Below, in pieces: positions 2,619 to 51,026 of a stretch of DNA of 64,000 nucleotides. The DNA comes from an uncultured Eubacteriales bacterium (GTDB lineage Bacteria; Bacillota; Clostridia; Peptostreptococcales; Anaerovoracaceae), in NCBI GenBank assembly GCA_902786815.1, contig CADADV010000004.1, forward strand, positions 58,852 to 122,851, given 5' to 3'. Position 1 is the first letter of the stretch. Every line of letters begins with the position of its first letter. The notes beneath the pieces were generated by a model that saw nothing but the letters and a program-made list of their open reading frames with translations, was not told the origin of the DNA and made no database searches. The position numbers and the translations under genes are program-made.

Positions 2619-2902
2619 AAAAAGACCGATAGGCAGTGAACGAGGCGACTTCCGCAGGAGCATTTACAGCCAAAGGTGATACAGTAGCGTTCAAGTACTA
2701 AAAAAGACCGATAGGCAGTGAGCGAGGCGGCTTCCGCAAGAGCTGCTACGATCACAGGCAAAATGAACATAGAGAATAGTAAAATCCCGGACATGTTTGA
2801 GAGCGTTAGCTCGAGTTTGTCCGGGATTCTATTCTCTGTAAATGAGCCGTAGTGATCGTCAGCGATGAGGACTTAGCCTCGCTTACTTCCTATCGGCCTT
2901 TT
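2619..2902 (-). repeat. Large structured hairpin element, copy 1, with a duplicated half-unit
   Basis: The gap between the nfnB and CDF genes is filled by this element. Outer stem: 2703-2728 pairs with 2876-2901, 26 positions with about three mismatches or wobbles. A second stem joins 2741-2754 with 2853-2864, with a small bulge. An inner hairpin at 2761-2846 ends in a loop with its own mini-stem (GAGC/GCTC). The left arm and its TTCCGCAGGAG motif are duplicated at 2619-2661. On the minus strand both half-units end in CCTATCGGTC followed by T5-T6, so the element may also terminate nfnB transcripts. The inner hairpin and GAGGACTTAGCC are shared with copy 2 at 36478-36684. The strand given assumes it is read with the genes upstream. 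The small open frame at 2567-2794 inside it is not believed. Confidence 0.75.
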
Positions 2903-2916
2903 ATTGCTTTTGCATG

Positions 2917-4305
2917 CTACTTGCTCAGGTACTCATCCATGGACGCCGCGGCAACTTTGCCCGCACCCATCGCCTTGATAACAGTAGCTGCACCTGTTAC
3001 AGCGTCGCCGCCTGCGAAGATGCCGTCACGGTTTGTAGCAGCCGCATCATCCGTTCCGATGCCGCCTCTCTTGTTGGCTTCCAGCTGATCCGTTGTGTCG
3101 AGGATCAGTGTGTTCAGCTTAGTTCCGATGGACATGATGACCATGTCGACAGGAACTTCGAAGTTGGAGCCTTCGATCGGAATCGGTCTTCTTCTTCCGG
3201 AAGCATCCGGTTCGCCCAGTTCCATCTGAACGCATTCGATGGCCTTTACATTACCGTCCTCGTCTCCAAGGATCTGAACAGGATTGTGCAGCAATTTGAA
3301 GATGCATCCTTCCTCAATCGCGTGGTGAACTTCTTCTGCTCTTGCAGGCAGTTCTTCCATGCTTCTTCTGTAGATGACATATACTTCGCTTGCACCCATT
3401 CTCTTAGCACATCTGGCAGCGTCCATTGCAACGTTTCCGCCGCCGACAACTGCGATTCTGTCACCGTGCATGATCGGAGTATCGTATTCAGGCAGGTATG
3501 CCTTCATCAGGTTGATTCTTGTCAGATACTCGTTCGCTGAGCAAACGCCGATCAGGTTCTCGCCCGGGATGTTCATGAAGGAAGGAAGTCCTGCACCGGT
3601 TCCGATGAATACGGATTCGAATCCTTCTTCTTTCATGAGTTCATCGACTGTGATCGCTCTGCCGACAACTGCGTCTGTGACGAACTTGACGCCTTTGGCT
3701 TCCAGTTTGGATACTTCTGCAGCTACGATTTCCTTCGGAAGTCTGAACTGCGGGATTCCGTAAACCAGTACGCCTCCTGTCTTATGCAGTGCTTCGAATA
3801 CTGTAACTTCATAGCCTTTGTTGACCAGATCTCCGGCACAGGCCAGCCCTGCCGGACCGGCTCCGATGATTGCAACCTTGTGGCCGTTGGACTCTACAGG
3901 AGGAATCTCCTCGTCACCGTAGTGTGCCGCATGCCAGTCAGCAGCAAATCTTTCAAGTCTTCCGATGGCAACAGGCTCACCCTTTGCACAGCGTGTGCAG
4001 ACACCCTGGCACTGGTTCTCCTGCGGGCAGACTCTTCCGCAGATAGCAGGAAGTGAACTGTCTTCGGAAATGATCTGATATGCTTCTTCGAACTCGCCGA
4101 TTGCGATCTGTGCGATGAAGTCAGGAATCTTGATATTTACAGGGCATCCTGAAACGCAAGGCTTTTTGCGGCACTTGAGGCATCTCATGGCCTCTCTGAT
4201 CGCCATTTCTTCAGTATAGCCTTCTGCGACCTCCAGGAAGTTTTTGTTTCTAACGTCTGGTGCCTGTTCAGGCATCGGGTTCTGTTCTTTTACGAGATTA
4301 ATCAT
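2917..4305 (-). CDS. nfnB: NfnB: NADPH-binding subunit of electron-bifurcating NADH-dependent ferredoxin:NADP+ oxidoreductase
   Basis: 462 residues from an ATG at 4305 with a GGAGGTG Shine-Dalgarno; the upstream GTG at 4317 lies inside that site and is rejected. The N-terminus has the Cys cluster CLKCRKKPC-x3-C (about 41-53) and a second set (CGRVCP, CQGVC) for two [4Fe-4S] centres. FAD binding is shown by VAIIGAGPAGLACAG and NADPH binding by IAVVGGGNVAMDAARC. The family resembles the glutamate synthase small subunit; the paired NfnA gene just upstream (8-base overlap) makes NfnB the better call than GltD. With NfnA it couples NADPH, NAD+ and ferredoxin. Cytoplasmic. Confidence 0.88.
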   Translation of the reverse strand: MINLVKEQNPMPEQAPDVRNKNFLEVAEGYTEEMAIREAMRCLKCRKKPCVSGCPVNIKIPDFIAQIAIGEFEEAYQIISEDSSLPAICGRVCPQENQCQGVCTRCAKGEPVAIGRLERFAADWHAAHYGDEEIPPVESNGHKVAIIGAGPAGLACAGDLVNKGYEVTVFEALHKTGGVLVYGIPQFRLPKEIVAAEVSKLEAKGVKFVTDAVVGRAITVDELMKEEGFESVFIGTGAGLPSFMNIPGENLIGVCSANEYLTRINLMKAYLPEYDTPIMHGDRIAVVGGGNVAMDAARCAKRMGASEVYVIYRRSMEELPARAEEVHHAIEEGCIFKLLHNPVQILGDEDGNVKAIECVQMELGEPDASGRRRPIPIEGSNFEVPVDMVIMSIGTKLNTLILDTTDQLEANKRGGIGTDDAAATNRDGIFAGGDAVTGAATVIKAMGAGKVAAASMDEYLSK

Positions 4306-5146
4306 GGTAACGAACACCTCCTGTCAATCTGCATACATGTGCTCTGTCCTCAGCTTCCTGATCCTTGTAGTAGTTGGATCTCTTGATGAGGTCGTCCCAG
4401 TCTACCAGTGATCCGTCAAATTCAGGACCGTCAACACATACGAACTTGTCTTCTCCGCCGATCTTGCATCTGCAGCCGCCGCACATTCCTGTGCCGTCGA
4501 TCATATATGCTGTCAGGGATGCGATCGAGTGGATGCCGTAGTCAGCTGCCATCTTGCAGGTGAACTTCATCATCATCGGAGGTCCTACTGCAACGATTTC
4601 ATCATATTCTTTGCCGGATTCGATGAGCTCCTTCAGCTTATCTGTAGTGAATCCCTTTTCGCCGTATGTACCGTCGTCTGTCATCATGTAGAGGTTGTCG
4701 ACGCCGGCTCTGAATTCATCTTCCAGGATTACGAGGTCTTTGCTCTTGTATCCGCAGATCATGTCAACTTCCACACCGTGATCGTGCATGCCGCATGCGA
4801 GCGGATATGCCAGGGCGTTTCCAGTACCGCCGCCTACGACGCAGACCTTCTTGAGGCCGTCCATGTTGGTCGGCTTGCCGAGTGGTCCGACAACGTCCAG
4901 AAGGTATTCACCCTCCTGAAGCTGTGACATGAGCATTGTTGTTCTGCCTACTGCCGCGAAAATCAGGTCGATCGTTCCGGCTTCGGAATCGTGTCCCGCC
5001 ATGGTGAGCGGAATTCTTTCACCGTATTCATCGGTGATCAGGATAACGAACTGTCCCGGTTTTGCCTTGCGAGCTACGAGAGGAGCTTCAATTACAAGCC
5101 AGAACATGTTATCGTTCAACTGTCTTCTTTTTACTACTTTAAACAT
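4298..5146 (-). CDS. nfnA: NfnA: ferredoxin-NADP+ reductase-like subunit of the bifurcating transhydrogenase
   Basis: 282 residues, the usual size. The N-terminal half is an FAD-binding barrel of the ferredoxin reductase type (IPLTMAGHD, then the PLGKPTN stretch), followed by a nucleotide-binding GGGTGNALAYPLA segment near residue 105, and a C-terminal [2Fe-2S] cysteine group (MCGGCRCKIGG plus a later FVCVDGPEFD). This layout is that of NfnA and of dihydroorotate dehydrogenase electron-transfer subunits; the NfnB gene directly downstream decides for NfnA. It lies 17 bases after nifJ, so reduced ferredoxin from pyruvate oxidation and its consumer are made together. Confidence 0.87.
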   Translation of the reverse strand: MFKVVKRRQLNDNMFWLVIEAPLVARKAKPGQFVILITDEYGERIPLTMAGHDSEAGTIDLIFAAVGRTTMLMSQLQEGEYLLDVVGPLGKPTNMDGLKKVCVVGGGTGNALAYPLACGMHDHGVEVDMICGYKSKDLVILEDEFRAGVDNLYMMTDDGTYGEKGFTTDKLKELIESGKEYDEIVAVGPPMMMKFTCKMAADYGIHSIASLTAYMIDGTGMCGGCRCKIGGEDKFVCVDGPEFDGSLVDWDDLIKRSNYYKDQEAEDRAHVCRLTGGVRYHD

Positions 5147-34938: not shown

Positions 34939-36354
34939 ATGATTATGAAAAGAGTATTGATTATTATCGCTGCTGCTCTGGTATTCCTATTTGCAGCAGC
35001 CAGCGTTGCCACAGCGGCATACACACATTCTGAAGACAGCTCAGCCGACAGACTGCCGGACAACATTTCGATCAACGGAGTGGATGTTTCCGGTATGAGT
35101 TATGAAGAGGCAGCCAAAGTTCTTACAGAGGCGCAGAATGCGAAACATCTGCAGGTCGTAGGTAAACTCGGCGAGACGCTGGCCGACTATACGGATTTCG
35201 GCTGCACTTATGATATTGAAGATCAACTGAAGAATCTTAAAAAGGATCATAGGATCGCGTCGGCTCTCGGACACTACCTTCACATTCCTATCAATGCGCA
35301 GATTGCCATGAATATCAAAGACTGCGGCGACGACTTTGCTGACCGTGTGAAGAATTCCAAGTTCCTTGACCACGGCACGATCGTAGAAACCCAGGACGCC
35401 TATGTCGATATGGACGATCCGACCTTCCCGATCATTCCTGAGGTTTACGGAAACAAAACCGATGGAGATGCTTATCTTGCAGACATACTCCATGCGATCA
35501 CTATGAACATGTCGAGATTCGAGTTCGATGAAAACGCCTACAGGTCCATGCCTAAGGTCAAGAGCGATGATCCGAAGCTTCTCAGATACCAGAAATTCTG
35601 CCGCGCTTACCTGAACCAGAAAATCACCTACGAACTTGGCAAAGACACCTTTACCCTCTCGGTCAAGGAACTGCTTGGTCTCATGAAAGACGACCTCTCC
35701 GGAGAAGCCGATTCAGACAAGGTTAAAAAATATGTCAAGAAACTGAAAAAAGAATATGATATCGTCGGCGGCGAGCACAAGTTCACTTCCCTGACCGGAA
35801 AGACTTTCACAGTCAACGGCGGAAGCTACGGATGGATCATCGATGAGGAAGGCGAAGCGAAAAAACTTAAGAAAAATATCAATTCGCACGAAGATGTGAG
35901 TCGTTCGCCGGTCTTCTCCCAGAAAGGAAACGGAGAATACTCCAAGACCCTCGATCTTGGAAACACATATATCGACGTAGACCTGTCGAAACAACATGTC
36001 GTCTACTTCGAAAACGGCAAGAAGAAATTCGAAAGCGACTGTGTATCCGGCTGCGTAGCAGCAGGTCACAGCACGCCGACCGGCATCTTCTCCATCAACA
36101 ACAAAGCCAGAAACATCAAGCTTGTAGGAGGCGGCCCGAAGAAGAGCAAGACCCACTATGAAAGCTTCGTCAGCTACTGGATGTGTTTCCTCGGTTACGG
36201 ATACGGACTCCACGACGCCACCTGGAGATCCAACTTCGGCGGCGACATCTACAAGTACAGCGGCAGCCACGGATGCGTAAACCTGCCGCCAGCCAAAGCC
36301 GGTGAACTCTACGACCTCATCAGCGTCGGAACCATCGTCATCGTCCACAACTAA
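34939..36354 (+). CDS. L,D-transpeptidase (YkuD) with putative peptidoglycan-binding domains
   Basis: 471 residues. An N-terminal membrane anchor or signal (about 4-28) is followed by INGVDVSGMSYEEAAKVL, the start of a PG_binding_4-type domain, then a long linker region, and a C-terminal YkuD domain (about 345-470). The catalytic motif HGCVNLP with SGSHGC is present near residue 445, giving the catalytic cysteine, with GYGLHDATW as the conserved upstream His part. It should form 3-3 cross-links in the wall from outside the membrane. The first ATG has weak Shine-Dalgarno; a second ATG lies two codons on. A hairpin directly after the stop can terminate it. Confidence 0.9.
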   Translation: MIMKRVLIIIAAALVFLFAAASVATAAYTHSEDSSADRLPDNISINGVDVSGMSYEEAAKVLTEAQNAKHLQVVGKLGETLADYTDFGCTYDIEDQLKNLKKDHRIASALGHYLHIPINAQIAMNIKDCGDDFADRVKNSKFLDHGTIVETQDAYVDMDDPTFPIIPEVYGNKTDGDAYLADILHAITMNMSRFEFDENAYRSMPKVKSDDPKLLRYQKFCRAYLNQKITYELGKDTFTLSVKELLGLMKDDLSGEADSDKVKKYVKKLKKEYDIVGGEHKFTSLTGKTFTVNGGSYGWIIDEEGEAKKLKKNINSHEDVSRSPVFSQKGNGEYSKTLDLGNTYIDVDLSKQHVVYFENGKKKFESDCVSGCVAAGHSTPTGIFSINNKARNIKLVGGGPKKSKTHYESFVSYWMCFLGYGYGLHDATWRSNFGGDIYKYSGSHGCVNLPPAKAGELYDLISVGTIVIVHN

Positions 36355-36355
36355 A

Positions 36356-36389
36356 AATGTGTCAAAAGGGACGGTTCTTTTGACACATT
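36356..36389. repeat. REP-like perfect palindrome, also terminator of the transpeptidase gene
   Basis: AATGTGTCAAAAG (36356-36368) pairs over 13 bp with CTTTTGACACATT (36377-36389), loop GGACGGTT. It begins one base after the TAA stop. From memory, palindromes of this exact type (GTGTCAAAAG / GGACGGTT) are dispersed repeats in many genomes and are linked to RAYT transposases; this is recollection, not a search. The following T-run is weak. Confidence 0.65.
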
Positions 36390-36390
36390 C

Positions 36391-36684
36391 GGCGAAACCA
36401 GAAGACGCCTGGATATTCGGGCGGCGAGACCGGAGGACGGCGTGCGGGCGATTCCGCAGGAGTAGGATCACTATCGACCGGCGGAAACAGCGGATAGTGA
36501 CCGTGCGGTTTCCGCAGGAGCAGGCACAACCATATGCGAAATGAACATAGAGAATAGTAAAATCCCAGGCACTGTCTGAGCTGCACCGCAGCGAGTTTGC
36601 CTGGGATTCTATTCTCTGTGAATGAGCATGCATGGTTGTCTGCGACGAGGACTTAGCCAGGTCACTATTCGCTGTTTTCACCGG
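36391..36684 (-). repeat. Large structured hairpin element, copy 2, with repeated left part
   Basis: Main fold: 36478-36502 pairs with 36660-36684 (25 positions, three mismatches or wobbles), enclosing an inner hairpin at 36539-36626. The 28 bases at 36539-36566 are identical to 2761-2788 of copy 1, 36603-36626 differ from 2823-2846 at one base, and GAGGACTTAGCC recurs (36647-36658). The outer stem has no sequence likeness to that of copy 1. To its left are a second TTCCGCAGGAG (36452) and a degenerate ~32-bp tandem repeat (36391 and 36423, GGCGARACCRGARGACG). TCACTATC at 36468-36475 can pair with GATAGTGA in the left arm and so competes with the main stem. The strand assumes reading with the genes upstream on minus. 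Confidence 0.72.
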
Positions 36685-36693
36685 TCAGCGATT

Positions 36694-50924: not shown

Positions 50925-50947
50925 TGTAAATTACAAAGCAAAAGCAA

Positions 50948-50988
50948 AAAACCGGAGAAACGCCATCAAGCGGGTGTTCTCCGGTTTT
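50948..50988. terminator. Bidirectional terminator between the CoA ligase and pta genes
   Basis: AAAACCGGAGAA (50948-50959) pairs with TTCTCCGGTTTT (50977-50988) over 12 bp. T-rich on plus (CTTTTATC) and on minus (TTTTTGCTTTTGC). A GCAAAAGC octamer abuts it at 50938. Confidence 0.9.
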
Positions 50989-51026
50989 CTTTTATCTTTG
51001 GTTCAGGATTTGGGTCTATACCTGTC

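Follow-up and report, generated by a model that had tools for sequence, protein, structure and literature searches.

Mobile or repeat sequence candidates (MRSCs) were defined in a survey of 50 genomes, with 250 in the category (PMC11109978). One of them, MRSC-65-2, is described as a single long stem with strong covariation, often present in dozens of copies per genome, with a conserved UYCCGG repeat and an occurrence in diverse phyla; its authors thought it selfish and considered that the fold may matter as DNA (PMC11109978). REPINs are inverted doublets of REP sequences (20–40 bp; PMC3733652) that are extragenic and non-autonomous, form a hairpin in single-stranded DNA or mRNA and are linked to RAYT (PMC3116915). 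In the Bacillus cereus group, bcr1 and further repeats are dispersed, 100–400 bp long and have features of mobile elements, and a TTTAT motif is reported for the bcr repeats (PMC6542083).

Here we describe an intergenic element of related gut bacteria with two copies in the window, by which we mean the whole 64,000-nucleotide stretch of DNA that was analysed. Like MRSC-65-2, it consists of one long stem, covaries strongly and occurs many times in a genome; unlike MRSC-65-2, it has conserved GA-rich loop modules and changing stems, and is found in one family with variants in two others. It has the multiple copies (12 in its own genome, up to 35 in others) and the covariation-supported structure that mark the MRSC category; as to the association of that category with genes for transposases, integrases, nucleases or helicases, Y1_Tnp was the one family searched and showed none, and the four large neighbours in the window are of other kinds. 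Like REPINs, it forms inverted doublets between genes (26 of 76 copies), whereas its unit is a rod of ~200 nt and it does not co-occur with Y1. It differs from a MITE in that terminal inverted repeats are not common to most copies, being similar in six of 14 copies in one genome (G017). It differs from bcr1 in its host group; bcr1 reportedly has a conserved RNA fold with compensatory changes. MRSCs and REPINs are the closest published kinds. The loop modules and the freedom of the stems are particular to this element as far as the comparison went, which among the 250 MRSCs took in MRSC-65-2. A literature search on the loop sequences and on similar repeats, with most subscription journals outside its reach, found no description of the element among the papers listed.

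On balance, we favour reading the element as a non-autonomous dispersed hairpin repeat, a rod of ~200–210 bp that is spreading or once spread through genomes of the family, mostly between the 3' ends of genes.

The two copies in the window

A sequence-only reading of this DNA had proposed a two-copy element, and the element is real: the 28 nt of AAATGAACATAGAGAATAGTAAAATCCC, starting at 2761 in copy 1, are identical in copy 2, the right arm GGGATTCTATTCTCTGTRAATGAGC differs between the copies by a single base, and TTCCGCARGAG and GAGGACTTAGCC are found in both. The outer arms pair within each copy and have no sequence relation between copies. The start that had been given, 2619, is not in the rod, which begins at about 2702; positions 2619–2664 hold a truncated extra left arm outside it. 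The features are as follows.

2702..2903, + strand: copy 1, whole rod and outer stem, with the TTCCGCARGAG side on the left
2702..2729, + strand: copy 1, left arm of the outer stem, an A tract and then GACCGATAGG, paired with ~2876–2903 in the predicted fold
2732..2743, + strand: copy 1, left side of the basal loop, TTCCGCAAGAGC
2761..2845, + strand: copy 1, middle and apical part, with conserved loops and a long apical hairpin
2862..2872, + strand: copy 1, right side of the basal loop, GCGATGAGGAC, the GAGGAC columns being invariant in 35 copies
2876..2903, + strand: copy 1, right arm of the outer stem (from the fold), ending in a T tract
2619..2664, + strand: relic, a truncated extra left arm and TTCCGCAGGAGC, absent from the sister genome G071
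36476..36686, + strand: copy 2, whole rod and outer stem, from sequence and fold
36452..36462, + strand: extra TTCCGCAGGAG located 5' of copy 2, from a motif match
2917..4317, - strand: oxidoreductase with Fer4_20 and Pyr_redox_2 domains, right neighbour of copy 1, its 3' end abutting the copy
34939..36354, + strand: gene with a YkuD L,D-transpeptidase domain, left neighbour of copy 2

The covariance model described below recognizes a core at 2720–2886 in copy 1 (167.5 bits) and at 36498–36666 in copy 2 (180.5 bits). The motif TTCCGCAGGAG is also present in the relic at 2619–2664, outside the rod of copy 1, and the extra occurrence at 36452–36462 is possibly the relic of an older copy. Among 94 copies, an extra left motif lies within 150 nt upstream on the same strand in four and on the opposite strand in nine; downstream there is none on either strand. 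The next-best matches of the model in the window score 19.5 and 18.9 bits, at 50939–51002. We rejected this site as a third copy because the hairpin is followed by a T run and looks like an ordinary terminator.

The gene at 2917..4317 is one that we take to be glutamate-synthase small-subunit-like. The large neighbours of the two copies encode cation-efflux, Fer4_20/Pyr_redox_2, YkuD and pyruvate-carboxylase-type domains and have no common theme. A palindrome, TGTGTCAAAAGGGACGGTTCTTTTGACACA, lies at 36358–36387 just 5' of copy 2. Similar palindromes stand beside sites in G071 (L309) and G017 (L242), which suggests a further palindromic repeat of the dispersed type.

Distribution

Using copy 1 as the query, blastn matched 16 of 61 genomes. 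Its own is one of them, and all 16 belong to the 37 genomes of that genus. The covariance-model search that had been suggested in the sequence-only reading reached further: within the genus, 34 of 49 genomes had matches, 235 in all. G029, the richest, has 35 matches, G017 has 24 and the genome of the window (G000) has 12. In the family scan 44 of 247 genomes had a match, representing 21 of the 92 genera sampled, and in the class scan (E 1e-6) nine of 391 genomes did, seven of them outside the family (six in family f17 and one in f42). These family and class counts are lower bounds because a deeper scan scores a smaller number of candidates in each genome; G000 yields 12, 10 and 7 matches in the genus, family and class scans, respectively. 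Variant copies were read in G430 (f17) and G565 (f42), and the five other f17 genomes have one match each of 38–49 bits, by model score alone. Named carriers include Eubacterium minutum ATCC 700079, with three loci of 101–104 bits in the covariance model, a MAG of Mogibacterium at 87 bits, and a number of MAGs under the titles Clostridiales or Bacillota.

A pattern scan of genome contigs gave at least 117 stretches, and 40 of these loci were submitted to the model. Loci L039, L040, L043, L045, L080 and L081 were set aside as chance-like by host and without a model match, and L047, L086, L087, L095 and L111 did not match the model. With copy 1 as the query, a distant blastn search of plasmid and phage collections gave no match, and none of nine viral contigs carrying the pattern matched the model at E 0.1. 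The sequence-only reading had recognized no named RNA family, and a search of the window against Rfam 15 agrees, with zero matches at the gathering score. A permissive search of five loci returned four sub-threshold matches (E 0.2–2.8) to Xanthomonas, Pseudomonas, microRNA and lncRNA families, none of them relevant. We note a divergent subtype at L059 and L063 (RGIG3020), in which the middle module GAGCAGCTAAGA replaces GAGAATAG.

Fold, conserved loops and covariation

Folded as RNA, copy 1 (2697–2906) has a predicted energy of -105.8 kcal/mol (z -11.1) and copy 2 (36478–36684) one of -113.3 kcal/mol (z -12.3), and for neither copy did any of 200 shuffles fold as well. The outer stems are as strong, and as unrelated to each other, as had been claimed. 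Relatives follow suit: all 99 copies with sufficient flank have a predicted outer stem, of at least 18 pairs in 97 of them (a count without a shuffled control), and the stem sequence differs among most copies.

The covariance model was built from 35 copies in a MAFFT alignment. In this alignment 94.2% of 1708 cells are paired, compared with 74.8% on shuffling and 30.9–45.7% for slid structures. Changes on both sides occur at 44 of 49 pairs (shuffled mean 29.5), a level reached in none of 500 shuffles; the covariation score of 0.582 compares with 0.212 for shuffled alignments and 0.07–0.12 for slid structures. Controls of this kind are inflated by related rows, and the structure came from the same alignment, but the margin is still large. 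The earlier interpretation is upheld as regards the conserved fold with rebuilt stems, and the covariation is strong; selection specifically on an RNA structure does not gain support. The element also shows that covariation by itself does not tell RNA genes apart from mobile DNA repeats that fold.

What is kept in the 35 copies is the sequence of the loops, CCGCARGAGC/GCGAYGAGGAC, GCGAAAYGAAC/GTGARTGAGC and TGTYTGAG/CGAGTTT, and many of the 21 invariant columns lie in or beside them. The basal loop resembles a kink-turn by eye. The 235 matches in the genus are thus an extensive natural set of sequences that preserve fold and loops but not stems, and with which structure-guided recognition by a mobility factor or an RNA-binding factor is directly testable.

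Modularity

The element is modular. All seven copies in G430 have the basal and middle motifs without the apical one, and all four in G565 have the apical and middle motifs without the basal one (one or two mismatches allowed). Orthologous copies likewise keep one module and replace another: copy 1 and its G071 orthologue share the outer stem and have swapped the inner hairpin, and copy 2 differs from its orthologues in G007, G064 and G013 in the outer stem too. The simplest account, we infer, is that copies trade contiguous inner segments, joined within the conserved loops, and so mix their modules.

Such swaps would also be expected if there were no selection on structure at all, the arms being kept complementary by arm-to-arm correction of a quasi-palindrome together with module exchange by recombination. 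That the apical stem has few intermediates, with 7 G-U and 3 A-C in 1076 cells, fits this explanation, as does an orthologue at site S272 that is inverted within its flanks and truncated. Correction acting alone would, however, erase mismatched internal loops, and these stay conserved on both sides, as the 21 invariant columns testify. We regard the explanation as improbable.

The same modularity could be read more boldly, as a hairpin built of stacked modules, in each of which a conserved GA-rich internal loop is set between paired stems of any sequence. An undescribed recombinase or reverse transcriptase would recognize these modules on the folded strand by shape and not by sequence, and all stems would be free to turn over. 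We rate this as unlikely and put it forward tentatively.

Genomic setting and terminators

The setting was counted by a simple open-reading-frame rule for 76 copies with both neighbours, 26 of 102 having been skipped for short flanks or missing neighbours. Convergent genes surround 43 copies and divergent genes two, while 14 and 17 are in the two co-directional settings. A second copy lies within 900 bp of 26 of the 76, in every case head-to-head. Exceptions outside the 76 are same-strand neighbours at L068 and a weak tail-to-tail pair at L074, and same-strand neighbouring copies also occur in G140, G285 and G076, which belong to other genera. The observation that the copies lie downstream of minus-strand genes is correct for both copies in the window and fails as a strict rule for the family, because single copies in co-directional settings are oriented 13 to 9 with respect to the genes. 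A strict rule that the right end faces a gene 3' end was likewise weakened, as the right neighbour is on the opposite strand in 60 of 76 copies and the left neighbour faces the element in 57.

A position mostly at gene 3' ends is what a long intrinsic terminator would show; copy 1 ends in a T tract, and related loci without the element after the copy 1 gene often have a terminator by eye. The composition of the flanks runs against this. At 20–25 nt beyond the core of 98 copies the left side is T-rich (33–46%) and the right side A-rich (31–47%), the reverse of what termination by the rod would need. Runs of at least five T start within 35 nt to the right of the core in four copies, and runs of at least five A in 21; a hairpin followed by a U tract is thus not the pattern of the 98 copies, copy 1 being an exception. 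Moreover, separate terminators stand beside the rod and point inwards, on the right in 13 of 96 copies (shuffled 0.4), with the T tract starting 25–28 nt from the core in nine of the 13, and on the left in nine of 96. That the rod is itself a terminator therefore seems very unlikely.

RNA or single-stranded DNA

In 91 of 102 copies the RNA of the + strand is more stable than that of the opposite strand, the mean difference being -9.35 kcal/mol. Single G-A or A-G mismatches on the + strand outnumber C-T or T-C by 43 to 7, and G-U exceeds A-C by 54 to 37 in folds that forbid G-U, by 118 to 52 in a model-fitted alignment of 102 copies and by 77 to 25 after thinning to 62 copies of less than 75% identity. 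These biases, and the conservation of several sites between species, are what one would expect of a functional structured RNA, part of a 3' UTR or a transcript of its own, in which the rod binds a protein through tandem G-A loops and the covariation reflects selection on RNA. Weighing against it, the 4845 pair cells contain just 2.4% G-U and 1.1% A-C, whereas in a small control of nine tRNAs from the same loci 12 of 191 pairs are G-U and none A-C. Copy number ranges from 0 to 35, and the 13 to 9 split of co-directional single copies gives no orientation rule. Sheared G-A pairs, furthermore, form in DNA as well. We consider the structured RNA possible, though on the unlikely side.

Because the pairs are almost purely Watson–Crick and the G-U excess is modest, the covariation can be explained equally by single-stranded DNA that folds or by correction of one arm to the other. 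We lean towards a folded single DNA strand as the acting form on account of the evidence for mobility that follows.

Site comparison and mobility

The Fer4_20/Pyr_redox_2 gene beside copy 1 is matched in 49 of 49 genomes of the genus, yet of 30 loci with this gene or its nearest relative only two, in G000 and G071, carry the element. Twenty of the loci were read downstream, only 157 nt being available at L236; 18 are empty, many with an intrinsic terminator by eye. The site of copy 2 is occupied by the element in G007, G064 and G013 also, with other stems.

Eight further sites were compared between genomes, of which S265 is the one clean case of presence and absence. Here G064 and G013 have the element and G007 lacks it (flanks 94% and 90% identical); in G007 two convergent stop codons, by our reading, are 12 nt apart. 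The element is absent from this site in G035 and G000 too. The insert is flanked by CTGCAG and CTACAG and the empty site has CTACAG, which may represent an imperfect 6-bp target duplication at this one site, although loss rather than gain of the element could also account for the difference. At S198 the element is present in G000 and other hairpins occupy the site in G071, with flanks 96% identical. S272 apart, the remaining sites have the element on both sides, or flanks too changed for an empty site to be read. Several sites are common to genomes with flanks that are ~80% identical, and therefore turnover of the element is slow. Capture of a pre-existing terminator stem on insertion was looked for at the orthologous sites as a source of the outer stems and was not seen.

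Recent spread is seen outside the family, in G430, where each of seven contigs carries one of seven copies that are 91–98.5% identical. Next to these rods the flanks have palindromic ends in common but are otherwise different, which leaves the spreading unit in G430 without sharp boundaries. The outer arms are similar in six of the 14 copies in G017, the left arm being up to 79% identical. It had been argued from the conserved fold with changed sequence that the element differs from MITEs. We cannot agree that this sets it apart from mobile repeats, given that sites and copy numbers vary, S265 is found both occupied and empty, arms are similar in G017 and the G430 copies are nearly identical.

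Because copy numbers and sites differ between species, S265 is clean and the G430 copies are so alike, we prefer to regard the element as a dispersed repeat that is probably mobile. The outer stems count against this, since they are mostly unrelated, in eight of the 14 G017 copies too, which is unlike an ordinary transposon. A trans-acting enzyme might recognize the element as a folded single strand, in all likelihood of DNA, with the conserved GA-rich internal loops as its main contacts; the stems could then take any sequence that pairs. A settled copy may be tolerated, or may serve as a hairpin at a gene 3' end; copy 1 may do so, to judge from the A and T tracts at the ends of its outer stem.

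If the enzyme were a RAYT (Y1) transposase the element would be a REP or REPIN, which are also palindromic, intergenic and arranged in inverted doublets. However, Y1_Tnp (PF01797), the only mobility family tested, is present in 13 of 49 genomes of the genus and does not track copy number: it is missing from the richest genome, G029, and present in G030, G066 and G062, which have no match. The element is, besides, ~200 nt long with conserved internal loops and not a short palindrome, and we attach hardly any credence to this assignment.

A reading frame for a Y1 (IS200-type) transposase is found just past the terminator at L250 in G016, a site orthologous to that of copy 1. The hairpins at S198 in G071 (L314) form a different cluster, with repeats around GTATCA and its complement. 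In G430, palindromic ends of the form GCGGCAATCTC and GAGATTGCCGC near several of the rods (L345–L351) represent a second type of repeat.
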